Position numbers and translations under genes: made by a program
The notes under the pieces: model-generated
What the model saw: the letters and a program-made list of their open reading frames with translations, nothing else
The model's database searches: none
Told to the model about the DNA's origin: nothing
Part shown: in pieces, positions 26,802 through 57,520 of the stretch
How positions within the stretch are numbered: the stretch's first letter is position 1
Layout of the letters: every line of letters starts with the position of its first letter
DNA from: Phialocephala subalpina
Taxonomy: Eukaryota > Ascomycota > Leotiomycetes > Helotiales > Mollisiaceae
Direction: 5' to 3'
Length of the DNA: 64,000 bases
Assembly: GCA_900073065.1 (NCBI GenBank)
Contig: FJOG01000031.1
Location: forward strand, 281,329 to 345,328

Positions 26802-29007
26802 TCATAACAAGATGACTTCATATCCAAGACTATTCATGGCCGACGTCCAATCCGGGTCTGCAGTTTCACCACTATCGGCGAGCCTCCAACACTCCTTCAA
26901 AACATCGACAACCTTCCCGATACGACGAACCGCATCCGTCTCCTCTGCACTCGCCTTCCCCGCCAGGACCATGAGAAACTCACGGTCTTCTCCCTCAGCC
27001 AAGCACCCTGCCAGGCACAGAGGCCACGTGAGGTAATTCAGCGCCTGTGCAGAGGGCAGTTTGCGGAACAAGTCAACCGTGGCGCGGACCCGATTAGATA
27101 CGTCGGGCACCCATCTGTGTGCCCCTGCAACGACAATGTGCAGATACACAAGCGCAGCGCTGGCAAATATGTCGATTACGTGCCGCAGTAGGTGTGTAGG
27201 GTATTGGGCCACCGTGCCCGTGGCCTCGTCCTGGATTCCCGCCGGCAGGAGGTTCGGGAAGCGGTCCGAAGTGGCCTCTCCCGACATGCTGGCTCTCTCG
27301 CACTCCTCAAGCCGAGTCTCGATAGCGGTTGCGCGTTTGACTAGGTCGACGACACTCAGACGGCCGGCCTCGGCCAGCTTCTTCTTCCACGCGTCGAGCG
27401 CGGCAATCTGGGAGATACTAGCGATGACGAGGTCTTGCCAGTGGTGGTAGCAGCACTCACTGCCTGTGCTTGCCGATGAAGGAACAGTGGTCGCAGGCCA
27501 CTCGAGGCTGAGTAGAGACGGCGCCGTCCGCAGCGAGCAACTTAACATAGCATCACACCAACGGAGAGACACGGCGATGAAACGCAGCGCTGCCGAGTCG
27601 ACCGCCCGCACATCTGAATGGCACACTTTCCCCAGGCCAGCGAGCAGTTTGAAGGCCGCACTCATGTGCACCCTACAGGCTTTTGACTGCCCTCGCAGTG
27701 TCTACTATACCAGTCAGTTACCTTATCATATCTTGGCCTTTCTTGGCATGTTTGAAGAGGCGTTGCTGTAAGCGTTCCGCTTGGAATGGCTAAGCGACTC
27801 GAGACGAAGGAGGGAAACCCAAACTCACCTCTAAGAATATAAGCTGAAGAGTTGAGAAGCAGCAATCAAGTGCACTGGTAAAAGCGTCCCTGCCAGCAAA
27901 TGCAATAGCAGCTGGGAGGTTTTTGCGCAGCTCTAGAAGCGCAAGCTCATGATAGCAAGACCCGTCTATTCTTGGGAGACAAATGGTAAGCAGATTGCTC
28001 TCAGCGACACGTCGAATTTCCACGCACCTTGACCTAGCCCATACGAGCTCAGGCTGAGCGTGGCCCAGTACGATGCCCTGGTACGTGTGATCAGCACGTA
28101 CTGCCATGCACGATCTGCTGCCCTGGGCCCGCAGAAGGGTAACTGCAGCGTTTGCATGTTATCCAAGTAGTGGAGCAGCAGGCCAGCTTCCTCGAGCGTC
28201 GGCGGCGCGATGCAGTTGCTCCTGCAGGACGATCCCGATCCCGACATGGAGGATGACGAAGCAGAGGCAGAGGGCGAAGATGAAGACATCCGAGAGCGTG
28301 AGCGGGATTGAGAGGGAGAGAGGGAGAGAGAGAGAGATTCCGTCTCCAGATGTGGGGACATGGGCATGGGATGGAACGACTGTAATTCTAGTTGCAGCTC
28401 ATCGGTTGGCGAGGTCGACAGCGGACCGAACAGCTGCTGCAGTTCCCGTTCCGATGGATAGGCATCCTGTCCGAGTCCCTGATCTTGATGGATAGCCAAC
28501 AACGAGTGTGAATGCGCTTCCATCTGCCAGGCTCCGAACGCCTCTTCCCCCGCGGTCAGCTCCGAGATTGTTAAGTCCGGAATACCCTGACTCTGGTACG
28601 TCGCCATCGTGGCCTCCACTGACCAGTCAGACTCGAGAGATGCGTTCTCCTGTGTGGATAATGATGGATTTGCTGGTCGTGATATTGACTGCTCGGAGCT
28701 CTTGGATGTCCCCGAGAGGCTCTTCCTGTCTCGGACTGCTTGCTTCGTCTGCTCCGCCCGCATCTTCTCCTGGTAACCGCCGTCCATCCAGAACGGCCGT
28801 TGTGCATATCCATCGCACGTTAACTGCAATTTGCTACACCTATTATGACAGGCGAAGTTAGTTAATTATGATTATCCACTTCTGGATCCGAGAATGAAGG
28901 TGCAATTGGCGTACATACCTCAGACATACGGGCTTGGTCTCATCGCATTTCTTACGACGAAGCCTGCAAGTCCAACAGCCCGTCGAACTCCGATTTTTGG
29001 TTGCCAT
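26802..29007 (-). CDS. Zn2Cys6 transcription factor with fungal TF (DUF3468-type) domain
   Basis: Four exons on minus: 29007-28919, 28839-28028, 27965-27829, 27686-26802, joining in frame to 640 residues. The binuclear zinc cluster is split by intron 1 and reads [18 protein letters not shown] then [10 protein letters not shown], giving all six cysteines. A low-complexity Ser/Arg/Ala/Gly stretch follows (around 28230-28340). The C-terminal part has [24 protein letters not shown] and LQLIFLE, typical of the fungal-specific domain of this regulator class. An in-frame ATG at 29055 would add 16 residues. It is the nearest regulator to the RiPP-like cluster, about 2.4 kb away with a transposon relic between. 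A regulatory link is only a positional inference. Confidence 0.82.
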
Positions 29008-31448: not shown

Positions 31449-32261
31449 ATGGCCAGAGATTCCATCACCCTAAGCAAAGAAGACGACGGCACAACAGACA
31501 CCCTGCTCTACCGCCGCGAATACGCACCACCGAAATGGTTGGCCCGCCATAGCAGTACTTTCTGGCCATGGAAAAACAAAGAAATCGAGTACTCCGCAAC
31601 AAGCACCAACAGCTCCGACGACGAGCTATCTCTCGACCCCAGAACGCCCCCCAACAGATCTTGGCGGTCCCAGAAAACGTTCCGAGTCGCAGCCACAGTC
31701 CTGAGCATCCTGTGTCTCGCAGCCTATGTCCTCGCCACGGCACCAATGCTGCTATCTGCTGCACTCGCCCATCGTCGATTCACATGTGGCTCCACACTCG
31801 ACGAAGCCCTCGCTCGCGGCTGCACCTTCGATCCCATGACCGTCCAATGGCTCCCTCCCCAATGTTCGCGTGCCGGCCTCGACGAGTTCCTCGTCGCACA
31901 TGGAACCCATACTCCCTACCGAAAACGCTCCGAGTCTTCCTACCCGGATCAGATTGCCAACGAGTCGACTTGGCGCTATTACACGGACGAAACCCAGGCC
32001 GTGGAGTACGTTGATGGGCTGCAGGCTGCGCCGGTTGGCCATTATATGTATTACACCACTCGAGGCGAACACCTCGCACACTGTACCTACATCCTGATCC
32101 GGGGTGCAGAGGCTCGTGCTGCGGGCGAGCGTCTCGATCTCTTGAGTGGGGATTTGGAGCACACGAGGCATTGTGCGCTCTTCTTGTTCGAGTACGCGAG
32201 ACAGGACCCGCATTTCGACACGGTGAACACGCCGGGTGATGTTATGCTGGGGGCTTGCTGA
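31449..32261 (+). CDS. Divergent UstY-like membrane protein with two HxxHC motifs
   Basis: Single exon, 270 residues. A soluble basic/acidic N-terminus of about 75 residues is followed by one strong transmembrane helix (about 80-106) and an extracytoplasmic domain. That domain has a Cys pattern (CGST...RGCTFD...PPQC) and two HxxHC motifs, HLAHC at 208-212 and HTRHC at 238-242. Paired HxxHC motifs after one membrane helix are the signature of UstYa-family (DUF3328) proteins, which oxidise or cyclise fungal ribosomal peptides. The N-terminal Cys module differs from classical UstYa, so this is a divergent relative. ATG at 31449 was chosen over a TTG two codons upstream. Its neighbours are a reductase, a repeat precursor and a classical UstYa gene. 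Enzyme activity is inferred. Confidence 0.65.
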   Translation: MARDSITLSKEDDGTTDTLLYRREYAPPKWLARHSSTFWPWKNKEIEYSATSTNSSDDELSLDPRTPPNRSWRSQKTFRVAATVLSILCLAAYVLATAPMLLSAALAHRRFTCGSTLDEALARGCTFDPMTVQWLPPQCSRAGLDEFLVAHGTHTPYRKRSESSYPDQIANESTWRYYTDETQAVEYVDGLQAAPVGHYMYYTTRGEHLAHCTYILIRGAEARAAGERLDLLSGDLEHTRHCALFLFEYARQDPHFDTVNTPGDVMLGAC

Positions 32262-32642
32262 AGGTTGGGGTACTGAGAAGAGCTGCTAGCTTGGTTTCAG
32301 AGAGTGTGGGGAGTCATGAATTGGGAGACATCTTGTATTTCGTTTTGAGTACTTCGTTGAATCCAATTGAAGATTTTCCTCAACTTTTTAAACTCTGTGG
32401 ATGTATTTAGCATTGTGAAAAGCGATTACAAGAGAATATAACCGACTCTCTTACTGAAAGTTTGTTCAAATTCTTTTCGTATTCTGTCAGCTTCTCTTTC
32501 ATTATTCTGAATCGACTCGAGTATAGTTCTTTGAAACTATTTGAATCCACATTTCATTTTCATACAACTCAATCACGCAAACGGGCTGGAAATCATCAAC
32601 TGTGACGTCGGTAGATTGTTTTCTCCCTTTTCCTATGTTCTG
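32262..32642. other. Intergenic between convergent genes
   Basis: 3' regions of the UstY-like gene and the reductase. Nothing else seen. Confidence 0.4.
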
Positions 32643-33913
32643 TCACTCTACATACTTCACAACCAACTTCCTCGCCGACACTTTCCCAGCCTGTAGATCC
32701 TTCACGCCCTGCAAAATCCCATCCAGCCCACCCGGTCGTACTTCATGCGGGTGCGGTCTCAGCCTGCCCTCATCCAACAAGCGTGCAATGTAGCGGTAGA
32801 AGGTGTATGCAAAGTCCGCATCCGCCGCGGCTCGCTCCTCGCTGATCCAATCGTGCTTGGACCCATACGCGCTCGAGACCAGAGTAAAAGTCAATTCGAC
32901 TCCCACCGGCGGGGTCCACGCCTTCGGCCCCGGGATGTCCAGCGCGGGTTCCCAATCCAACACCTCTCCCCAGTCCAGCATGTTGAGCTGTCCGCCAGGA
33001 GCAAGTACACCGCCGGCCGCGACCCAGCTGTCCCGCCCGCCCACACAGTCCAGCGCGTGAAGGAGCTTCTTCCCGCCCAATGCAGCGGTGATCTCGGCTT
33101 GGATGTGCTCGGCATCGCCCGCGCGGTGGTCGATGATGTGAGTAGCCGCGTCCAAGGCCTTAACGAAGTCGATCCCCGCGCCGGCAACGGTGATAATGGG
33201 GCTCAGACCGCTCAACTTCGCGAGCTGCAGTGCGAACCCACCCACGGCAGTGGCGCCGCCGTAGATCAGAACGGGAAGGTCCTTGACGCCAGGGGTGGAC
33301 GTGTCAGGTGCGGGGAGGCGCAACGCCTGGAACAGAGCGATCGCCGCTGTCATGCTGGCCAGTGGCAGCGTGGCGCCCTCCTCGAAAGACACGGCGGGTG
33401 GCAAGAGGAAGGTCGTTGATGCAGGCGCGAGAGCGTACGCTGCGTAGCCTCCGGATGGCTCGCCCAGACGGTGGAATCCTGCCACACGATCCCCGGGCTT
33501 GTATTCGAAAACATCAGACCCCACTGCCTCGATGATGCCAGCAAGGTCGTCTCCAGCATTGAGAGCCTCACTCTCGTTGCAATCCTCGGTATACTGAAAG
33601 GCAAGGTTAGCATGGCTCCCTTCGATTGTCCATGTAGAAAGACAAATGAGGAGCTAAAAAATGTAAACGAAGCTACCTTCCAGTCTTTGGGATTCAATCC
33701 AGCTGCAAAGACTTTGATCAAGACTTCTTTAGGTCCTGGTTTCCTGAGCACGTAATCTTAGCGATAGATAGATGGAAACGCTTCGTTTTGGCCAAAATTT
33801 CAAACCTCAAACAAATGTATCTTAGAAGGAAGGGAAACATTCACGCACGGGATTTCGACTGTTTGCCGGCGGGCAGTCCATTCCGGAACTCCGTAGATGA
33901 CAAGTTCCTCCAT
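32643..33913 (-). CDS. MDR-family zinc-type dehydrogenase / enoyl reductase-like protein
   Basis: Three exons on minus: 33913-33849, 33743-33677, 33593-32643, joining in frame to 360 residues. An in-frame ATG at 33925 would add four. The GroES-like N-terminus reads EVLIKVFAAGLNPKDWK and AGDDLAGIIEAVG. A Rossmann segment YGGATAVGGFALQLAKL follows, then DCVGG and a C-terminal PGGLDGILQGVKDLQAGKVS. The catalytic zinc ligands of alcohol dehydrogenases are not evident, so it fits the quinone-oxidoreductase / trans-acting enoyl-reductase branch, common in fungal metabolite clusters. It converges on the UstY-like gene (382 bp apart) and is on the same strand as the repeat precursor. A reductive tailoring role is inferred. 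Confidence 0.8.
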
Positions 33914-33925
33914 CTTTCCATCCAT

Positions 33926-35411
33926 CCTAGATAGGTGGCTTCTAATGTCCGTACGTACGAGGGTCCCGAAGGTGAAAGTTGCTGAAAATGCGCAACGCCC
34001 TGGATTATTTTTCGATAGGATTAGATCGTGCTTTACGTTTCAATGCCTCTGAAGATGGTGTTAACGAGTTCGGTTCATGATGAGCAGAAATAGGCCAGCC
34101 TTAAATATATAAGAGGTCCGTTAGCGTGCGCACGTGAGACGCACGTGGCTTTCTATCATGTGAGCATACGATACAACTTTCCCCCTTTTCAATCGAGTTG
34201 TTATGATATAGATGACAATCATGTAATAGCTTTGAGGACACACTAAAAATTCTTCTTGGCAATTTCTTTATGGCGCAGTAGTTGCGGAAAAATCTCACAG
34301 CTTCTCGACGTGTGGGACTCGTTGTTGCCGGAAAGTCTGTTCTATCTGTCGAAACTTGCTTTGAACAGAGTCAAAATAGGGGCTGAACAATAGTTCTCGT
34401 TTATTTAACATCACAGACCCTTCATATTACGCATTAAAGGTATACAATATAAGTAGGCTTTCGCCGCGCGAGTACATTTACACCAGACTTCCCTTTCTCG
34501 TAATTCAACTTTCAATAACCAAAATTTCAGTATAAATTGATACTTACAGTAGCTATAGTGTAAAGATTGGTCGGTGCAAGAAGAGAGTATGGTCGGTGTA
34601 TGCAAGTTTGTAGGTGATAAAGGTAAAGAGGATATATGTAAAGGTAGAGCGTTGCTACATATAGTTCAGAGGTTAATTAATATATTGGCTTTAGACTACC
34701 AGAGATCAATCTAAGAGGAGCTTACAATGATGTATGTTCTCGGTCAAATAGCTGTGAAGCTTAGATTATCGAGATGATTCATCGTTGTAGGAGGTCAATA
34801 TGATGTGGCATGTGAAGGTGAAGTAGAATGTGAAGCCTGTTTGTAAATTGAAGGGGTATTTACCTTTCTCACCCCATCTCGTCACTTCTAAGTACTTTCT
34901 ACCAACCGGAGGAGGAAAGCCCAGGTGTCTCTTAAGACGCAGGAATTGGAAGGACTTGCTCTACTTCACAACATGTATCTCTTTCGTAAAGCCCAAGATT
35001 CTAGATAGACCAGTCATCATTTCCAGCTAGCTTTGGACTGCATCCATCTATTTATCATTCCAATACACACGAAAAGGTTCGAACATTTTCTAAAAGGCAA
35101 GAAATTCGATGGCAATGTGATACAAGCTGGAAAGGAGAAAATTCATTCATTCGCGTAACTATCAATCTCTATCTCGATATAGAGTCTCAGACAACACTCG
35201 GCGACTTCTAGAAAATTGGGAAACAGGAAAGGGAAAAGACAACCAAGTTTTTCGTTATTCCAATTCGTAACCAGACCTCGAATCCCCAAGCAAGCAGACA
35301 ATTTCAATTGAACCCTTCTCCCCCGGCCCGATGTCCGACCTCGACCTTAGTCGCACAGCAATCGGATGAGGAATTGAATGTTCATTGCAAAACCCGACCT
35401 CCATAAGCCAC
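33926..35411. other. Intergenic between reductase and precursor gene
   Basis: About 1.5 kb with only short ORFs lacking family features. Presumably contains the reductase promoter (right of 33925) and the 3' region of the precursor. No relic recognised. Confidence 0.35.
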
Positions 35412-36429
35412 CTACTCGTTGTCGACAGACGTGGTCTGATCATCGTTAGTAAGCAAATCGGGAAAGGTTGGGAGACTGTGCATTCGGGATGCACTCTGAA
35501 AGCACAGGTGAACTTACAAACATGCCCTTGAGGTCCTCTCCGCGAGCCTCAACGTCCATAGAGGTGCTGAACATGCCCTTCAAATCCTCGCCACGCTTCT
35601 CGGCGTCATGAGAAGTGGTGAACATGCCCTTAAGATCCTCTCCGCGCTTCTCGGCATCGTGGGAGGTAGTGAACATGCCTTTAAGGTCTTCACCACGTGC
35701 CTCTATATCGACAGAAGTGGAAAACATGCCCTTCAAATCCTCTCCGCGCTTCTCGGCATCGTGGGAGGTGGTGAACATGCCTTTGAGGTCTTCACCACGT
35801 GCCTCCACGTCGACAGAAGTGGAAAACATGCCCTTCAAATCCTCACCACGCTTCTCAGCATCATGAGAGGTAGTAAACATGCCTTTGAGATCCTCTCCGC
35901 GTTTCTCGGCGTCATGAGAAGTAGTGAACATGCCCTTGAGGTCTTCTCCGCGCTTCTCAGCATCGTGAGAGGTAGTAAACATGCCCTTGAGATCCTCCCC
36001 ACGCCTCGCAACATCAACGGAGGTGCTAAACATGCCCTTGAGATCCTCTCCGCGTTTCTCGGCATCATGAGAAGTGGTGAACATGCCCTTGAGGTCTTCT
36101 CCGCGCTTCTCAGCATCATGAGAAGTGCTAAACATGCCCTTCAAATCCTCACCACGTTTCTCAGCATCGTGAGAGGTGCTGAACATGCCCTTGAGATCCT
36201 CGCCACGCTTCTCGGCGTCATGAGAAGTAGTGAACATGCCCTTGAGGTCTTCTCCGCGCTTCTCAGCATCGTGAGAGGTAGTAAACATGCCCTTGAGATC
36301 CTCCCCACGCCTCGCAACATCAACGGAGGTACTGAACATGCCCTTGAGATCCTCTCCGGGAACAGGGGCTGCGAGGCTGCCAGTGCCAAAGATGGCAACG
36401 GCAATGAGGGTCAAGCGCATGGTGTGCAT
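35412..36429 (-). CDS. Secreted Kex2-processed repeat precursor, candidate RiPP (dikaritin-like) precursor
   Basis: Two exons on minus: 36429-35518 and 35435-35412, split by an 82-bp intron (GTAAGT...GATCAG), giving 311 residues. The first 20 or so residues form a clear signal peptide, and AAPVP follows. Then come 17 tandem repeats of 17 residues: invariant GEDLKGMF, then S/T-T-S, then H, V or M, then D, then a basic end. Eleven repeats end KR, two RR and three AR; the last is cut short as TTSVDNE after the intron. KR and RR are Kex2 sites, so secretion would release many 15-mers. Codons vary between repeats while GEDLKGMF does not, so the protein sequence is under selection. The layout matches dikaritin precursors. 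No repeat contains Tyr. A Rep1-like structural repeat protein is the main alternative. Confidence 0.8.
35518..36357 (-). repeat. 51-bp coding tandem repeat array (16 full units plus part of a 17th)
   Basis: The DNA periodicity of 51 bp corresponds exactly to the 17-residue protein repeat. Units differ at third positions (for example CTC, TTG or CTT for Leu; GAC or GAT for Asp). This is a coding minisatellite, not a CRISPR array. Confidence 0.95.
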
Positions 36430-37236
36430 TTTGAGATGAGTCGAGGACTTGTAATTCCGTGAAAGGGAAGTGAGTTGGTGAAGAGGCGATGTAAAGACGA
36501 GGTAGATGTGAAGACTTGAGTATTCGACTGTTGTTCGATGTGAGCTTGAGTGAAGTATTGGTAAAGGGGGAATTAGAGAGGTCTTATATCTTGGGAGAAT
36601 TGAGCATAATTGAGTGATCACAGTGAACTTTGAGGCGTACCGCTCTTACCAGGAGTTACATCTTGCAACCGCCTGCACTAAACCTCGTTACTCCCATGGC
36701 GCCTGAGCAAGCTCGACGATGTGATCGTACGCATTCGAATGATTCCTCTCGTGATAGTGTGTGTGGATCACTTGCTGTCCCCAAACGGACATTTGGCGAA
36801 GCGCGAAATTGACGACGCGACGCCAGATCTCCACGAAGGCGCCGCCGGGTTGACGTGAAATAATCGCGAGAGGAAATGAAGCCGCGGATTATGAGTACAG
36901 TATAGCAGCGCGGCACGTGCCTGAGTTCGCCGCTGAGAGCCTGAGGCGCCGCGCCGCCGAGAACTTCGGTAAATCGACCAATCAAACGAAGCAACGCCGA
37001 CTGTCTGCTGCATGCTTGCTAGTGACATCGAGAGCACCGCGCGGTTGAGGGCAGGACGAAACGCATGTCCGTCTCGAAGGCCACTCATGGAAAAATCCGA
37101 CCATGAATTTTTGGAGTGTTCTTCTTTCACCTCCTCCATGGGCCCCCCATCCTTTCTTGCTGCATCTTACATCCACATTGGCCTCTCCTGTCCTTTACTC
37201 AATTACAAACCAGTCTCAAAAACGACGACATCGAAC
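36430..37236. promoter_or_regulatory. Shared divergent promoter region, precursor / UstYa
   Basis: 807 bp between the start codons of the precursor (minus) and the UstYa gene (plus), which would allow co-regulation. The middle, about 36800-36970, is GC-rich with several CGG triplets that Zn2Cys6 factors could recognise. No defined operator was proven. Confidence 0.5.
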
Positions 37237-38230
37237 ATGTTTAAGAGCTACTTGTTCAGCAAAGAGCATCAATACATGCCTGTTTCTGTACAGAGCGACG
37301 GACAATGCCAGTTGCCTATGAGCAATGACAACAAGGCCATTCGACGACGAGCCTTCGTCTATGCCTTGCTTGTTCTGGAGGCACTGCATTTGATTCTTTT
37401 TCTTGCTGTGTACGCTGGCATGCACGTCTTCTCGGACATCCACTTGAGCCATGAGCTGGATACCTGTACGTTGATTCTCCCTCCAACGACTTCTTGGAGA
37501 CGCTGAATTGACCGATGACTTCAACGTTGGTAGACTTTGCTCTTTCCGAGTTCAACACGGTCAAGACATTCTATGGCGACTGGGCTTTGATGAACCGCAG
37601 CGCTGAGTCCGATGCTCTTTTCGAGCAAATCCAAAAGTGTATGTACGGCAAGGCTATAGCCAGCCATGCTTTGTCCAAATTCCGAAGCGCAATCAGCTAA
37701 TTGACGTATTTCCTTCTTCTTCAGCGGACGGGGTTGTTGCCATAGACACCGAATGGGCCCTTCTTCATGGCTATGCGCCCTCTGTAGCACATCCCCAGGA
37801 CACTACCAAGAGCATCTATCAGATCGACATGTTTCACTCGATGCATTGCGTGGTAAGAGACCTTTTCCGCCATCCAAGAAATTGGGAATCTCATCCCGCA
37901 CTATCCATGAATACCCGAAAATTAGGACACTGCTAACTCGTCGGTGCAATCGCACCGTACTAGTACCGCCTTCGTAACAAATTGACCTCTTCTCTATCGC
38001 TGCATGATTGGCCACGCAATGACGAGCACACGCTCCATTGCCTCGATTACCTTCGGGAGCAGCTGATGTGCAATTCAGATCTCACGCTTGAAGGCACCGA
38101 CGACCTTCTCCACTTCAACAAAAACAGCGGTCACGTGTGCCGCAATAGCGATGCAGTAACAGGCTGGGCTGCTGAGCATCACTGGGACGGCCATCGGCAA
38201 TTCCTTATTGATACAGAGGGGTATCAGTAG
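37237..38230 (+). CDS. UstYa-family (DUF3328) oxidative cyclase-like protein
   Basis: Four exons: 37237-37465, 37534-37638, 37725-37852, 37964-38230, joining in frame to 242 residues, the usual size of the family. A short cytosolic N-terminus is followed by one transmembrane helix (about 40-62), then an ectodomain. The two diagnostic motifs are HSMHC (149-153, in DMFHSMHC) and HTLHC (176-180, in DEHTLHCLDYLRE), and a conserved LMC.....TL block follows. In ustiloxin, cyclochlorotine and victorin systems such proteins catalyse oxidative modification or cyclisation of the peptide in the secretory pathway. It is divergent from the repeat precursor 0.8 kb away, which strongly suggests that precursor is its substrate. 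Confidence 0.88.
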
Positions 38231-39027
38231 CCAAGTTTGATTCCTGACATCAAGTTATAATAATCTACGACATGGGAACCGACTTTTTGGCAACATGGCT
38301 GAAGTTATGCTTAGGATATAAGTCATTGTTGTCAGGCACTTCACGTATCTTTTGAAGAGAGAACCGAAGATTTGGGCAATTTGGACTTTTAGCAATAGTT
38401 TGGATTCTAACGAAAACAATGCCGTCAAAAGAAAGAATACCCTTCCGAGCCCACAACCAATTTCCATTTTACTGCCTCGAAAGTTTAGTTCGGTTTCATC
38501 TTGAAAACAAACAAATAACAGAAATAGAGATGGGTCTATTTTGAAAACTGAACAACAATAACTGTAGCTTTTTTGAACTTTGAAATTTAAATCCAACAAT
38601 GTAAACAAATTCAACATAATTGCAACGAACACAAGTACTTATTTTCTCTTCCCTGTCGTTTTTGGTCTAACTGCGGCGGTGTTTGACGAAAGCGCCGAAC
38701 ATGGCGTCGTGCCTTCAGACCAATCACAAACGATCCCGCCGGCGTGCCGCATAGAAACACGGCGGGAAGATCCTTTCTAAATGGACGTACTTCCAAGTGA
38801 TCAATTCGCCCACACTTGAACAGCGGGATTATGGCCATATATTCTCTCTCAACACTCTCTATCTTACTTCCTTTCTTACGTTTTTTGCGTGGCCTCTCGG
38901 TCATCAGCCTTTGTTAGTAGAAGACGTACTAAATCCGATTCGTTGCCTACGACTTCCACCATTGCTTCACAAATCGGGACCCGGAAATTCATGCTTATCA
39001 AAAGCGGACGAGTAGTCACCTGACAAT
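38231..39027. other. Intergenic between UstYa and transporter genes
   Basis: No gene supported; ORFs on both strands lack features. Presumably the UstYa 3' end and transporter promoter. Confidence 0.35.
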
Positions 39028-40977
39028 ATGGATCTTGACGGAGACATGGATGACGGCCTCGACCTGATTTGGGGGGAGCCTGAGCCAAAGATCGAGTCGC
39101 CCGAATCCTTAACTCTTCCGACGAGGAGTGTTGGATTCCTGCTTCTCTTGACGGCTGGTCTTGGTGGGCAAGTCTTCAAAAACATCGCTATTCTTATGAA
39201 TTGAAAATTTGATCAAGGATTGGACTAACTTGAAGGACAGATTGCAAAGCATCTTTGCCTTGATATTCTCGAACGGCTCCGTGAGTATTTCCCCTCTCTT
39301 CTGCCCCCGAGTGCGGAAATTTCACTGCTGACTGGCAGAGAAAGGCACACTTGAGCAGTCTCGGCTTGAGTAAGCCTGTCCTCGCACTAGTCTGGATGGC
39401 CGGCCCAGTTGCAGGTATGACACTGCAGCCATACTTCGGGATCTGCAGTGATCAGTGCCGCTCGCCCTGGGGCCGACGGCGGCCTTTCATTGCATGTGGA
39501 ACGCTGGTGGCCGTGGTGTCTTTAATTGGCCTGGCTTCGGCCGAGAAGTTATCACAGGTGCTCGTCCACCTTTGGGCCAGTGATAGCTCCCACGCAGAAG
39601 CAGCAGCAGGCTCGCTGGCAGCAGGAGTAGCCGTCGTCTTTTTCGTGGTGCTCAATGTCGCTGTACAGCCAATACAAGGCGGAGTACGAGCGCTTCTCGC
39701 TGACATTTGCCCACGAGCCCAGCAGCCGGCAGTTAATGCCGTGGCGGGAATCGTTGTCAGTGCCTCGAATATTTTCAGCTACGCTCTGGGCTTCGCCGAT
39801 TTACCACGCCTAGGACCCCTCCGCGCACTTGGAGGCAACTCACAGTTTTCCATCCTTTGTGTTGTTACGTCGGCAACGCTCGTGGTCTCCATAGCCCTGA
39901 CATGCTTAACTGTTCGGGAGAGGAATCCGATGCTGGATGAGGATGTGCTCCAAAAGCAGCTTGGCGCCGAGGAGGACTCAGGGGACACTGTGTACGCCAC
40001 AACGTTGTACCTCTGCACCAGCTTTCCACGCCTGCCCCAGCAAGTGCAGCAGGTGTGCAAGGTTCAGTTCTTCTCCTGGATGGGCTGGTTTCCGTTCCTG
40101 TTTTATATGACGACATATATCGGCGATAGGTGTAAGCAAAGCAATTTCTTACAACTGCACTGCAGTCCACACCCCGTAGCCGTGACGTCTGGATAATTCG
40201 CATGGCTGACCAGAAAACGCAGACAAATCTAGCATGGCTACTGCGTCAGGTCGGCCATCTCAAACCGACCAAGAGGTACAGGCCAGGTCCACGAGAATCG
40301 GCTCCTTCGGGCTGCTGCTCTTCGCGCTGGTGGCACTGGTGGCCGGTGCCATTCTTCCTCTCGCCCACAAACACGCCAGCTGTCGAGATAGCCGAATAGT
40401 GGTTCCTTCAGGTATAAATGTCACCATCCGCCGGTTCGGAAGCATCCGATGCCTGTGGATCATGTCACACGTTCTATTTGCCTGTTGCATGTTAGCCACC
40501 TTCTTTATATCGTCGCTCCAAGGTGTCTGCATCCTTGTTGGCCTCAGTGGCATCAGCTGGGCCATAACCATCTGGGCACCTTACGCCATAATCAGCACCC
40601 ATGTCTCGCACGACGGCGACGACGGTGGTACGTATTTGCACTGTTCCGAGCCCCTGGTACTTCACTACAGTGAGTCCGAAGAGGAGGATGATCAACAATT
40701 CCAACGTCGATACGGAGAAAAGGGTGATGGTAACGATGAAACCTGTGAACGCCGGCCGGGAATCGCGTTTGGCCTACATAATGCGGCAATTGCAGGACCG
40801 CAGATCGTAGCCGCTGCCGCTTGCAGTCTCATCTTCTGGATGCTGGAAGGGTCATCGCAAGACGGAATAGGCTGGGCGCTGCGAGCTGGAGGTCTGGCTG
40901 CACTTGGGGCAGCTGTTCTGGCAAGGGGGATTAGGGAGGAGGATTCTGGGCTTGGGCCAGGAAGGGGGAGCGGCTGA
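39028..40977 (+). CDS. Sucrose-transporter-like permease (GPH/SUT type)
   Basis: Four exons, about 39028-39171, 39236-39280, 39339-40131 and 40223-40977. The first intron is uncertain: the GTCTTC donor is weak and the acceptor could lie five bases later, though only the given one keeps frame. Marks include LLLLTAGLGGQ, SNGS, LSSLGLSK.VLALVWMAGPVAG and the family signature SDQC....GRRRPFI, then many hydrophobic helices. An acidic cytosolic loop (SESEEEDD, about 40670-40700) lies between late helices, and FGLHNAAIAGPQ precedes the last ones. This fits fungal proton-coupled sucrose or alpha-glucoside permeases. It neighbours the UstYa gene on the same strand, so it might be a cluster member used for export or simply the flanking gene. 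Confidence 0.72.
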
Positions 40978-46270: not shown

Positions 46271-46482
46271 AATATATAGCCTGAATAAATGAATGAAGTT
46301 TATTCTGCCCAACTAAGCCTAAATGGCACTAGTCTATAGATCACATGAATCGCTTCTTCGTATATATGCTTTTTGTTTTTACCTCGAGCTTTCAATTGAA
46401 AAGTGCATCTGCGAACATGGGAAATTGAACACGGAACTCATGCAGCTTGAGAATACAGTATTATCAAGCATAATATGATGGG

Positions 46483-47373
46483 ATGGCAATGCTTACGCAT
46501 GAGCAGACCGCCGAAATTATGGCACAAACCACAGGACCAGTTCTGTCCACCACAGCGCCTGACCAGGCACACTTCTACGCCAAGCTTGATGGACCTCGTT
46601 CTTTCAGACTATTAAAATTCAAGGAAGGAGTTTTCATTGGCAAAGATCCAGTGGCTCTCAGTTTTATGCTGAAACAACATGACATCGATGACTGCCCACC
46701 CTATCTGGCCGTGTCGTATGTATTATGGGGCAGGCCATATTGCGAGCTCGATGCAAACAGAGATGCAGACGAGCCAATCGTATTCGACTGGTACATCAAG
46801 ATCAATGGAGGCAATTTCTTGATCTTGGGAAACATTTGGTCCGCACTTACACACGCACGTCTTCATGGTAATGGGAAGTACATCTGGCTCGACGTATGCT
46901 GCATCAACCAGTCTAATCTAGCTGAGCGCGAGGCTCAGGTGCTACTCATGGGCTCGGTTTACGAAAACGGTGCGGAGGTCGTTGGGTTCCTTAGACCTTT
47001 ACATCCAGACCTTGACTCCTTCTACTGGCTTCTCATGGACGTCATCTAGAAGCTCAGTAAATTGATAGTGGAAGACGAACGTCTCCTCGAAGAACGATCT
47101 CTGTGGACGATCCGTGACATGCTCAACATCGACAAGGGGTTCTTTGAAGCAAGCTTGGTTGGTACAGTCCGCTTCTACTACTTTTGTCGGTGGTTCCAGC
47201 GTGCTTGGGTAAAGCAAGAAGTGGTGCTTGCGCAGAGCCTCCGTCTCGTCTGTGGCAAGGCCAAGCTACCGTTCGAGAGGCTGAGCCTCGCTGCGATCTT
47301 CTTTGCGAGGTCTGAATGGTTATTAGACCTCTTCGCATACAAGCACCACTATCTCTTATATATTAAGTTTTAA
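46483..47373 (+). pseudogene. Broken HET-domain gene (N-terminal half)
   Basis: Frame opens at ATG 46483 with FRLLKF, PPYLAVSYVLWG, INGGNFLILGNIWSAL, IWLDVCCINQSNLAEREAQVLLMG and VVGFL, the core of a HET domain. A TAG at 47047 interrupts. The very same frame continues with VEDERLLEERSLW, WFQRAWVKQEVVLAQSLRLVCG and FERLSL, the second HET block, until AT-rich sequence ends it near 47373. It therefore has one nonsense mutation plus a 3' truncation. HET proteins trigger incompatibility cell death in fungi; this copy is most likely inactive. Confidence 0.8.
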
Positions 47374-52187: not shown

Positions 52188-53412
52188 CTAGGTGAAAAGA
52201 AGGTTCATCAAGCCACCAAGACTGTCGAAAGAAAACTCATACTTGTCCTGATTCTCACAAATACTAAGCACCTTGAAGTCATCGCTCTTGACGATTAACT
52301 GAACAGCAGTCTGATAGTACACCTCAGCAGTTGGCTTTCTGTAATCGGGTCGAAGCTCGGTGATTGCGGGGGCTACCACGTTCATAAAAGCATATACTTT
52401 ATCTTTGTCCTCCTTTGCTTTTTGGCGACGATTGCCCACCAACACGCTCCCAAGTTGGTCCTGAAGACTTACACTCATCCTGAAAGCGGCAAATGGGCCC
52501 GCTGTCTAGAAAAACTTTTGCCTCTGGTGGCACCTCTGATTCTTCTAGGGCATCGAAGAAGCGTGGAAGTATACAGGAGAGATGATTGCCGCTAAGTTCA
52601 GAAGAGCCACACATCAAAGTCCACCACGCACGGCAGCACGAGACTTCCTGTACTATCCAAGCTCGAGACCACCAAGGCCGTCCGAAAATGTCTAAGGGGA
52701 CCTCTCAAGTTGACAGGTTGATGTGCATAGGCTTCGAGTTTTCCACAACAGCTTGCCATCCCTCCTGGTCATCGCCCAACGGAGGCCCTTCGCTCATGTA
52801 CTTCTCCAGGAAACGGAAAGCTTGTTCACTCTGTACCGTGGGATCCCCTAGCCAGGCAATGGCTCATTTCGAATTATGGTAGATGACATGCATTTTCGAA
52901 ACCATGAAGTTCCTCTCTATGACATTTTGTTAATTGATGCAAATATCGTCCACCCAGAGGCATCTGGTTTCCGACGTGTGGCGCAAGTAGCGTAGAGCAG
53001 CCCATAGATTACTGGTGATGGAGAAGCGCTGGCCGTTAACTGATATGTATCTTCGATGAGACTCGTCTCCCCGAGTATAAGACAATGCTTCATAGACGGG
53101 ATTGTCAACCAAGCGCACTACGTGGAGAACGCATTCGATATCATCGAGCCGCGAATTCGCTGGCGGAAGATGCAAGACGCGGGTTGATAGATGGGCATCA
53201 AGCAGCTGGAAAGTTTCACGGGTAAGGTCCAAATCTTTCTTATTCCCAAGCGAGATCATAGGCGTGAAGTACGATCCACCTCCAGTTGCGATTAGCTGCT
53301 CATCGTAGGTCATGACGGGAGCTATCTCTTTGGGTATTCGGAGGTCATCCTTGTAAACCAGGCTTGTTCTCTCAGGGACACCGCTGCTAGTTGAACTGGA
53401 AGCTTGTGACAT
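52188..53412 (-). pseudogene. Broken HET-domain gene with several stops
   Basis: Minus frame from ATG 53412: YEALSYTRGDE, ISVNGQRFSITSNLWAALRYLR and CLWVDDICIN, then a TAA. The same frame continues QNVIERNF, a TGA, AIAWLGDPTVQSEQAFRFLEKYM, another TGA, then RPWWSRAWIVQEVSCC and LMCGSSELSG. After a further shift it reads DKDKVYAFMNVV and ELRPDYRKPTAEVYYQTAV to about 52188. All HET blocks are present in order. The stops replace the Gln and Trp expected by the family, so RIP or drift has killed it. Confidence 0.78.
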
Positions 53413-54159
53413 TGTCCCTTCTGCTGCCAGATCCGGACAGACTACGATATCGTAGTATAGCTCTCAGAGCTCACGCGGGACCGTGCTCATAAGCTCGGGT
53501 TGAGTCATTCTGCCACAAATATAGTCAGTGTTGTGAAGTCTGAGACAGACTCTTCTGTGCGAGTGTTGCCGTATCGTCGCGTCCGTGAAGCGGGGATGAG
53601 CATGAAACTCTTAAGAATAGAAGTCTTTAGTATTTAATATTTTATATATTAAATTTACTTCGTATTATTTCTTATTAATAGTTTAATCGATCATTAAATA
53701 CTATTTATAGACTTGTTTATATACCAAATGCTTTAAAGATAAAGCTTTATATCCTTTTTACTTATTCCTCCCTGGAAGATAAATTATCTTAGACCTCTCG
53801 GTATCATCTTACAAGTTCTATCAGTAGGAGCATCGTCGCTAGTCATGTATGCAAACTTCCAGATATAGCTCCAGGATTATAACGGTTTAACATCCGGAGT
53901 TTAACATCCAGAAAACGCAGCTGGTGGCATGAATATTCTTTTGCCTGCAAATTAGTTGACTTCATGCACGAGAATATTGAAACAGATCTAACAGAATTGG
54001 ACGATGGCATCAGTAGCATCCGCAGGGGTTATCATCCCGGAAATAAGAGCTGCGCAACCTCTTCCATTGAATAGACCCTATATGAATAGTAAAGCGAGAA
54101 GCCTGCCCATGTAGAGGAAATCCATCACCCACACGGTCCCCCTAACAGCCATGCTAGTC

Positions 54160-55404: not shown

Positions 55405-57148
55405 TTAAGCCCCTTCTATGTGAATTCCTGCAGCCGCCTTCTCTTTCTTAGCCGTTCCTTCAGGATCGTCCAAAGCAAGCTGGTCGCCAAAAACCATGTC
55501 CATCTGCTCCAGAGTCTTGCCCTTCGTCTCTGGAAAGAAGAAAAAGTAGCAAAGAGCTGCGCACATATTAAATACAAAGTACGCGTAGAAGTACTTGTAG
55601 CCGACTTGTTGAAATGCAAGAGGCGATACTTGCGCGATGATCAAGTTGAGGGACCAATTCACGACCGCTGATATCGAATTACCCCTCGCTCGAATCTCGA
55701 CTGGGAAAATCTCGGCAGGATAGACCCAGGAGATGATCCCGGTCATGATAAATGCGAGGCTGAAGACGAAGTTCATCGAAACAACAGCCCTAAGCGCAGT
55801 CGGGTTACTTGCCGGCTCTCCAGGTTTGTAATGCTCATCGAGGACGGTGGCAACGAGTAGAGAAAATCCGCATCCAAGTGCTGAAACTATCAAAGGGATA
55901 CGACGACCAATTTTGTCCAGGACATAAAGTCCTATTGTGCAATAGATGATGGAGAGCGATCCCGAAATGCCCGTGATCTTCAAGGACGTTGTCGTATCAA
56001 TATTGAGGCTCTGATATATCCGGGGTCCATAATAGTTGATGACCTATTCATTAAGCGTCAGTGGGTTTGGGTATGAGACTTCGGAGAGGAGCATACATTG
56101 ACCCCAGATAACTGGCCGAAAGCCTGAATGCCACACCCCAGAAGCAGTCTCTTCCGCCATGATGGACGTCTGACAAGGCCCTTCCATGATTTTATAGCCA
56201 GGGTTTTCTCTGCAACGATGACATCACGAATCTCTTGAAACTCAAGATCAAGGAACTCCTGATTGCTGCCATTTCCGTGCAATTTCTCAAGGACGGTTCG
56301 TGCTTCGTCAAATCTATCTTTCTCCATGAGCCAGCGGGGGCTTTCCTCGATAAAGAAGATACCGGCAGCAAGCAGAAGCCCAGGAACCAACTGGAAAGCT
56401 AATGGGAATCGCCCTACAGAATTGAGAGATTGGTTAGCTAGAAGGTACATTCGCCACCTAGAATCACAAGACTTTGTGGCTTACATTGGAATGAACTGGT
56501 AACGAAGGTACACCCATATCCCAACCACTGGGCAACCAGAAAGCCCCAACTCAGCATCCACTGCAACAGACCGCTCAACATTCCACGATGCCTGGCTTCA
56601 GAGATCTCTGACTGTAGTTAAATTTTGTCAGTAACTTGGAAGCGTTATAATTTCAGTATTACTCACGCAGTACATGGGTACAACGGCAGAGAGTAGTCCA
56701 ACAGCTATTCCAGCGATGAGTCTTCCAGCAATAAGCATTGCGATTGTAGCAGAACCAGCCTGAAGAGCACAGCCGAGGATAGAGATGAGTGAGCCGATGA
56801 AGACTGTCTTTCTCTGTGATAATATTTAGCCCTTCCAAGCACATCCAGAAGCGAGATTGGGGCGAAACAAACCCGTCCGAACTTGTCAGCCAGCCATGAT
56901 ATGGAGAGAGCACCTAGAATGGCTCCACCTTGGAACCCGGAAACAATACCACCAGCCTCAGAACTGGTTGGTGAGCTGAAGTACGTAACGAAATTCGGCT
57001 GCACAATGGTTGACGAGATGATGCCACTGTCATAGCCAAAGAGGAAACCTGCATCAAGTTAGGATTCGTCTTCACACAGCCTACAAGACAGCAGCGTACC
57101 TCCAATTGACAGGAACACGGCTGAGAAGCCAGTAAGGAGTCGACCCAT
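55405..57148 (-). CDS. Sugar-porter-family MFS transporter, probably frameshifted
   Basis: Exons on minus: 57148-57100, 57048-56873, 56813-56667, 56611-56486, 56413-56097, 56043-55405, with introns of 51-72 bp. Family marks are GFLFGYDSGIIS, DKFGRRKTV, AGRLIAGIAVGLLSAVVPMYCSEI, ESPRWL, GQLSGVN with INYYGPRIYQ, DKIGRR, GIISWVYPAEIFPVEIRARG and the terminal PETKGKTLEQMD. In exon 4 the conserved WLGYG reads one base short (TTGGATATGGG), and the following VTSSFQ-W join needs the missing base. So the gene is either frameshifted or the assembly has an error. It is divergent from an intracellular GH1 glucosidase, suggesting uptake of cellobiose or other beta-glucosides. A 250-bp tandem duplication covers its 5' end. 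Confidence 0.75.
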
Positions 57149-57520
57149 AGCGATAAGGAAGTTTCGGGTTTCTTTTCTGCGTTCCTATATTTCTTGAGAA
57201 TGGAGAATGAACTTGGATCAACATAAGGGGGAAGTTGTCCATATTTACGTCCTAACCTGCGGTGAGAAAAATGCCACTGTCATAGCCAAAGAGGAAACCT
57301 GCATCAAGTTAGGATTCGTCTTCACACAGCCTACAAGACAGCAGCGTACCTCCAATTGACAGGAACACGGCTGAGAAGCCAGTAAGGAGTCGACCCATAG
57401 CGATAAGGAAGTTTCGGGTTTCTTTTCTGCGTTCCTATATTTCTTGAGAATGGAGAATGAACTTGGATCAACATAAGGGGGAAGTTGTCCATATTTACGT
57501 CCTAACCTGCGGTGAGAAAA
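57021..57520. repeat. Perfect 250-bp tandem duplication over the transporter 5' end
   Basis: 57021-57270 and 57271-57520 are identical on reading, each starting ATGCCACTGTCATAGCC and ending GGTGAGAAAA. The unit holds the start of exon 2, intron 1, exon 1 with the start codon, and leader. Only the copy nearer the gene is continuous with exon 2. The outer copy is a spare 5' end inside the shared promoter. Confidence 0.9.

Follow-up and report, generated by a model that had tools for sequence, protein, structure and literature searches.

The locus described here, which lies in a 64,000-nucleotide stretch of Phialocephala subalpina DNA (the window), is likely, as judged from its sequence, to be a compact biosynthetic cluster whose product is a dikaritin-like ribosomal peptide (RiPP). 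It is on contig C71 of a genome of 68.1 Mb and 119 contigs, which was the genome analysed throughout. From left to right, the order is a Zn2Cys6 regulator, a divergent UstY-like protein (working name U1), an MDR reductase, the repeat precursor, a canonical UstYa/DUF3328 protein (U2) and a permease (Table 1). A preliminary description of the window had named five elements (precursor, UstYa, UstY-like gene, MDR reductase and permease), and all five were found. The divergent arrangement that it gave for precursor and UstYa was also borne out, as the two are transcribed away from each other with 807 bases between their start codons. Its reading of the locus as a dikaritin-like RiPP cluster is supported: PF11807 matches U2 strongly, and both the anatomy of the precursor and its adjacency to U2 fit. 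The splice models are our own predictions from the sequence.

Table 1. Features of the cluster, with positions in the window.
Feature	Position	Strand	Basis
Zn2Cys6 / Fungal_trans_2 transcription factor, candidate regulator, just outside cluster	26802..29007	-	PF11951
U1, divergent UstY-like, 270 aa, one exon	31449..32261	+	N-terminal TM helix (low-confidence model), HLAHC, HTRHC
MDR (zinc-type alcohol dehydrogenase-like) reductase, 3 exons, 360 aa	32643..33913	-	PF00107, PF08240
Precursor exon 2 (TTSVDNE-stop, completing unit 17)	35412..35435	-	splice model
Precursor exon 1 (signal peptide, 16 full units, GEDLKGMF of unit 17)	35518..36429	-	tandem array, codon comparison
Shared intergenic region, precursor/UstYa start codons	36430..37236	.	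divergent pair
U2, UstYa/DUF3328 oxidase, 242 aa	37237..38230	+	PF11807 E=2.7e-19
U2 exons (four)	37237-37465, 37534-37638, 37725-37852, 37964-38230	+	predicted splice model
MFS-type permease, several exons, approximate model	about 39028..40977	+	MFS_2, PUCC

The precursor is 311 residues long. It starts with what by eye is a typical signal sequence (MHTMRLTLIAVAIFGTGSLA), followed by APVP and then by 17 units of 17 residues, the last of them shorter, with the sequence GEDLKGMF(T/S)TS(H/V/M)D... The intron that separates off the short second exon carries GTAAGT, TACTAAC and AG, and the repeat continues across the predicted splice: the spliced end reads GEDLKGMFTTSVDNE-stop, with the final seven residues of unit 17 encoded by the second exon. 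The array scored up to 1024 in TRF and is therefore not due to chance. The terminal residues are KR in eleven units, RR in two and EAR, which is not dibasic, in three; the last unit ends in DNE-stop. Thus, where 17 dibasic-terminated repeats had been claimed, the number of units and the signal peptide (by eye) stand, but the dibasic ends are found in 13 of the 17. The three EAR junctions are not Kex2 sites, and we counted them against the cluster reading.

The first eight residues of the unit, GEDLKGMF, are identical in all 17 units, as are Thr10, Ser11 and Asp13. Over 16 units, pN/pS was 0.028 in GEDLKGMF compared to 0.27 in the other nine codons, values that are descriptive because the units are related by duplication and possibly by gene conversion. 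Silent sites were well diverged in both parts (pS of 0.71 and 0.63, respectively), while pN was 0.020 in GEDLKGMF and 0.168 in the other nine codons. As no residue of the octapeptide differs, its small pN arises from pathway averaging between the CTC/CTT and TTG leucine codons. The GEDLKGMF octapeptide is under protein-level constraint, and no other part of the unit is as good a candidate for the core, alone or together with a recognition sequence. No unit contains Tyr or Trp.

No homologue of the precursor was found at E≤0.1 among the 7998 candidates sharing most words with it that were scored. The search covered proteins of 0.55–1.75 times the query length (about 171–544 residues), and shorter precursors may exist in relatives. 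Three Pfam models (DUF5832, Nuc_N and DUF1843) matched the precursor over their cut-offs; no single stretch passes, and we took these matches to be sums over the repeats. The strings GEDLKGMF, DLKGMF and LKGMFTTS were not found in the main texts of the papers searched; surveys of Kex2-processed repeat proteins (KEPs) place their tables in supplements, and the unit may nevertheless have been reported.

U2 had been described as a classical UstYa with HSMHC and HTLHC motifs. It has both, and the PF11807 profile matched it with 70.3 bits, against a cut-off of 25. The HxxHC motifs, the REQLMC region that follows them and a C-terminal CR motif are conserved among its relatives, and 15 of the 16 homologues found with U2 carry the PF11807 label. 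A sequence search of the PDB with the U2 family gave no match at E≤1, and a structure search of the PDB with the model of a U2 homologue, a poor model, returned nothing at E≤0.001, a result to which we give no weight.

The gene with HLAHC and HTRHC motifs that had been called divergent UstY-like is also present. The preliminary description had proposed checking both proteins with UstYa profiles; U2 gave the strong match described above, whereas U1 had no Pfam match at E≤1, PF11807 included. The reading would have been refuted by a miss in both proteins, and this check therefore leaves it standing. Is U1 then a UstY-kind enzyme at all? A search with its sequence recovered ten proteins, U1 itself included, and three single-protein searches combined gave at least 16 U1-like genes at 14 loci of the genome, a lower bound. 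We aligned U1 with seven of these paralogues and with six outside relatives. All 14 members agree in ten columns, of which six are the His and Cys residues of both HxxHC motifs; the remaining four are Cys113, Gly114, Ala120 and Cys139. This invariance argues against the alternative that U1 is a membrane protein unrelated to UstY enzymes, in which the two HxxHC motifs arose by convergence or have a structural role, an explanation that we consider unlikely. Consistent with that alternative, 12 of the 14 family members scanned, U1 among them, had no match to PF11807 at E≤1. However, the best-scoring paralogue, on contig C67 (33% identity), matches PF11807 at E=1.3e-4 (22.3 bits, profile positions 11–175), under the 25-bit cut-off; one outside relative matches at 0.44, also under the cut-off.

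Comparison of the U1 and U2 families by hhalign was weak (probability 2%, E=0.023), which again leaves room for an unrelated U1, yet HxxHC...HxxHC aligns motif on motif. The AlphaFold models of U1 and of the U2 homologue are both poor (mean pLDDT 41.5 and 52.7, respectively); that of U1 has a predicted N-terminal transmembrane helix and places the HxxHC motifs on predicted helices, at low confidence. Because of the invariant motif residues, the sub-threshold PF11807 match of the C67 paralogue and the motif alignment by hhalign, we call U1 UstY-like, and it is probably homologous to UstY proteins. No relatives of either family were found in viral contigs.

The genomic company of the U1-like genes also speaks against an unrelated U1. 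Of the 14 U1-like loci, six have a PF11807 match within 10 kb, compared to 0.14 expected at random (binomial P about 3e-9; doubling the share of the genome that counts as near such matches gives about 2e-7). The cluster locus is one of the six, and without it the proportion is 5 of 13. Two further loci, on contigs C99 and C58, have a tyrosinase match at a distance of 1.4 and 2.7 kb, respectively, against an expectation of 0.07 within 5 kb (P about 0.002, unadjusted for having been noticed afterwards). In comparison, none of the 33 PF11807 loci lies within 10 kb of a tyrosinase match. At the remaining 6 of the 14, no PF11807 or tyrosinase match occurs within 10 kb, which would agree with an unrelated protein. 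A more far-reaching reading, possible but less likely than not, places U1 in a clade of its own within the UstY copper-oxidase superfamily, one that Pfam does not see and that acts together with a canonical UstYa or, elsewhere, with tyrosinases. Perhaps it would then be an obligate partner that shares a dimeric copper site, or that delivers copper or electrons. We did not find a description of a divergent U1 family near UstYa genes in the portions of the literature covered, and such a family may be what a specialist might not expect.

Repeat precursors were also found elsewhere in the genome. We examined 13 stretches, among them the window, which were selected for their U1-like or PF11807 genes and form a small, non-random sample. 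Nine contain PF11807 (9 of the 33 PF11807 loci) and four do not, one of these being more than half unreadable and given less weight. Precursors with dibasic junctions between repeats were present in 4 of the 9 stretches with PF11807, the cluster locus included, and in 0 of the 4 without. Besides the one described here, these are a precursor with EAINWIKR-type units on contig C20 and two on contig C112, with ATLYKTNKR-type units (near 1,343 kb) and LEYNDNNAVEKR-type units (near 1,415 kb). All three have a likely signal exon upstream, as judged by eye. On C20, and on C112 near 1,415 kb, the precursor, PF11807 matches and two U1-like genes lie within about 8 kb.

No precursor was accepted in the stretches on C67, C46, C44, C58, C99 and C116 by a permissive scan and a signal-plus-KR scan (the latter took in C58, C99, C67, C46 and C44), and none was found on C112 near 1,100 kb or C99 near 117 kb, both with PF11807. 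Three candidates were dropped by eye, having no units separated by dibasic sites: a Cys-rich repeat protein on C46 and a weak ORF on C44, both from the permissive scan, and a multi-helix membrane ORF on C58 from the signal-plus-KR scan.

The pairing of U1 and U2 probably extends to another fungus. The best named matches of U1 and U2 are both from Oculimacula yallundae (VTL71DRAFT_6837, 58%, and VTL71DRAFT_6840, 63%), and both are listed with a contig of 1,678,963 bases. The tag numbers imply two genes between them, as there are here (the MDR reductase and the precursor), and on the strength of these tags the pair is probably syntenic in Oculimacula. Together with the intron-bearing genes of the window, these matches point to an ascomycete, probably of the Helotiales. 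A second U2 relative in Oculimacula, VTL71DRAFT_13161, is on another contig. Other U2 relatives occur in Stromatinia, Rhynchosporium, Coleophoma, Mollisia, Tricladium and Xylogone, and relatives of U1 in Pestalotiopsis and Neopestalotiopsis.

How does the locus compare with known systems? The dikaritins (ustiloxin, phomopsin and asperipin-2a) have, as here, a signal-peptide precursor with repeats and Kex2 sites, and a DUF3328/UstYa gene nearby. The features of this class that can be tested in the sequence are all found (a UstYa with two HxxHC motifs, a signal-peptide precursor with Kex2 repeats, and proximity of the two genes), and so the cluster would be a new member of the dikaritin-like class. 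In contrast to the dikaritins, its unit lacks Tyr, and neither tyrosinase (PF00264) nor S41 peptidase (PF03572) has a match on contig C71, out of 53 and 9 matches, respectively, in the whole genome. Thus, the accessory enzymes of the ustiloxin/phomopsin type are missing, and the marks of that subtype, Tyr in the core and a tyrosinase in the cluster, are absent, points that count against the dikaritin-like reading. Tyr is present in 65.6% of DUF3328-linked KEPs in the survey by Umemura (PMC7329392), so about a third of these are without it. Victorin of Cochliobolus victoriae, treated together with the dikaritins in PMC9233826, has a ring made without Tyr, in which the side chain of a C-terminal Phe is joined to an internal Leu. 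The unit described here also has Leu and Phe, a likeness that we take as a lead only.

Alternatively, the repeat protein could give a plain linear secreted peptide (a signal, pheromone-like or effector-like), with the UstY genes acting elsewhere. This is quite unlikely in our view. KEPs at large have the same precursor architecture, and PMC7329392 gives a DUF3328 gene near 1758 of 7878 fungal KEP genes (22%), with the count peaking at the next gene, so that 78% have no such neighbour; among mating-factor KEPs one is present in three cases only. These proportions, together with the lack of Tyr and Trp in the unit and of a tyrosinase match on the contig, speak for a linear peptide. However, the precursor described here, unlike most KEPs, does have a DUF3328 neighbour, the PF11807 gene that it adjoins divergently. 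The probable synteny of the UstY pair in Oculimacula and the similar groupings on C20 and C112 also argue against a linear product.

The two remaining enzyme and transport genes of the cluster agree with what had been claimed for them. PF00107 and PF08240 are over cut-off on 32646–33653, confirming the MDR reductase. The permease frame at 39285–40193 has MFS_2 and PUCC over cut-off, as would be expected for a permease, with MFS_1 under; the frame at 40210–40974 had no Pfam match. In the regulator, PF11951 matches 26805–27701 (E=4.3e-27) and a Zn2Cys6 cysteine pattern can be seen by eye, while the frame at 27969–28865 had no Pfam match. From its position only, this gene is a candidate regulator of the cluster. 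CGG-N(0-12)-CCG pairs numbered 3 upstream of U1 (shuffle mean 2.1), 2 upstream of the permease (0.8), 0 upstream of the MDR gene (0.85) and 0 between precursor and UstYa (2.7), and from these counts we claim no regulator site common to the cluster promoters.

AT-rich stretches occur in the window at about 11–21 kb and within the 45–50 kb region, and they raise the idea that the cluster sits on an island of genes flanked by such blocks and, although intact, is silent in this strain or has begun to decay. We regard this as very unlikely: frames are open and splice sites plausible in the precursor, U1, U2 and MDR genes, and the precursor units show constraint among themselves.

If the locus is a dikaritin-like cluster, the precursor would enter the secretory pathway, and U2, and probably U1, would serve as copper oxidases in the lumen of the organelle, with the GEDLKGMF block as their substrate. 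Oxidation may hydroxylate or cross-link C–H positions; since the unit has no Tyr or Trp, the candidate sites are Leu, Lys, Met and Phe. Kex2 would cut after KR or RR, and trimming by a carboxypeptidase would yield peptides of about 15 residues. Their positions suggest that the MDR enzyme may take part by reducing an oxidised intermediate, and the MFS protein by exporting the product. The roles given for DUF3328 proteins in PMC10880069 and PMC12435403 are cyclisation, chlorination, hydroxylation and the formation of dehydro-residues. In PMC12435403, HxxHC(x)nHxxHC forms a binuclear copper centre at the dimer interface, and the enzymes are hypothesised to receive electrons or Cu(I) from an accessory protein. 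Of the proteins described here, U2 resembles the CctR-type copper hydroxylases of that source in both its PF11807 match and its motif, and U1 in the motif only, being below Pfam detection. The CctR substrate is a non-ribosomal cyclic peptide, unlike the one proposed here.

What would these findings mean for the family? With this cluster, the dikaritin-like class gains a Tyr-free, strongly constrained peptide unit, and U1 would represent an oxidase-like family that searches with Pfam models would miss. If U1 is indeed a separate clade that works with UstYa, a second oxidase would have gone unnoticed in many fungal peptide clusters, and the U1/U2 pair here would have a Tyr-free core as its substrate. 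Should the U1 family prove to be catalytic, or to be a partner of UstYa, a defined gene pair and substrate would make it possible to test how DUF3328 enzymes are supplied with electrons or Cu(I).

Repeat precursors, built as at the window cluster from repeated units with dibasic junctions, were also found on two other contigs of the genome, C112 and C20 (table). The LEYNDNNAVEKR-unit precursor on C112, which is apparently divided among several short exons, adjoins matches to PF11807 (the Pfam UstYa family) and two U1-like genes, that is, relatives of the divergent UstY-like gene U1 with paired HxxHC motifs and no Pfam match. PF11807 matches also lie close to the ATLYKTNKR-unit precursor, and no U1-like gene is among those listed at that locus. 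The C20 precursor, whose units are likely preceded by an upstream signal exon, adjoins one PF11807 gene and two U1-like genes.

U1-like genes were also seen near tyrosinase matches on C99 and C58, with no PF11807 match within 10 kb of either gene.

Features in the window and on other contigs of the genome
Feature	Examined stretch	Position	Strand	Distance to tyrosinase match
Repeat precursor, LEYNDNNAVEKR units	L033 6844-7113	C112 about 1,414.8-1,415.1 kb	-	
Repeat precursor, ATLYKTNKR units	L032 425-772	C112 about 1,343.4 kb	+	
Repeat precursor, EAINWIKR-type units	L024 5628-5849	C20 about 99.6-99.8 kb	-	
U1-like gene	L039	C99 59.1-61.4 kb		1.4 kb
U1-like gene	L037	C58 51.8-55.6 kb		2.7 kb
HET-domain frame	window	46474-47046		
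HET-domain frame	window	52933-53463		

Within the window, positions 57021-57520 comprise two tandem copies of a 250-base unit (100% identity), reflecting either a recent duplication or an assembly artefact. AT-rich blocks, lying at about 11-21 kb and inside the 45-50 kb interval, flank the gene island and resemble RIP-affected compartments.
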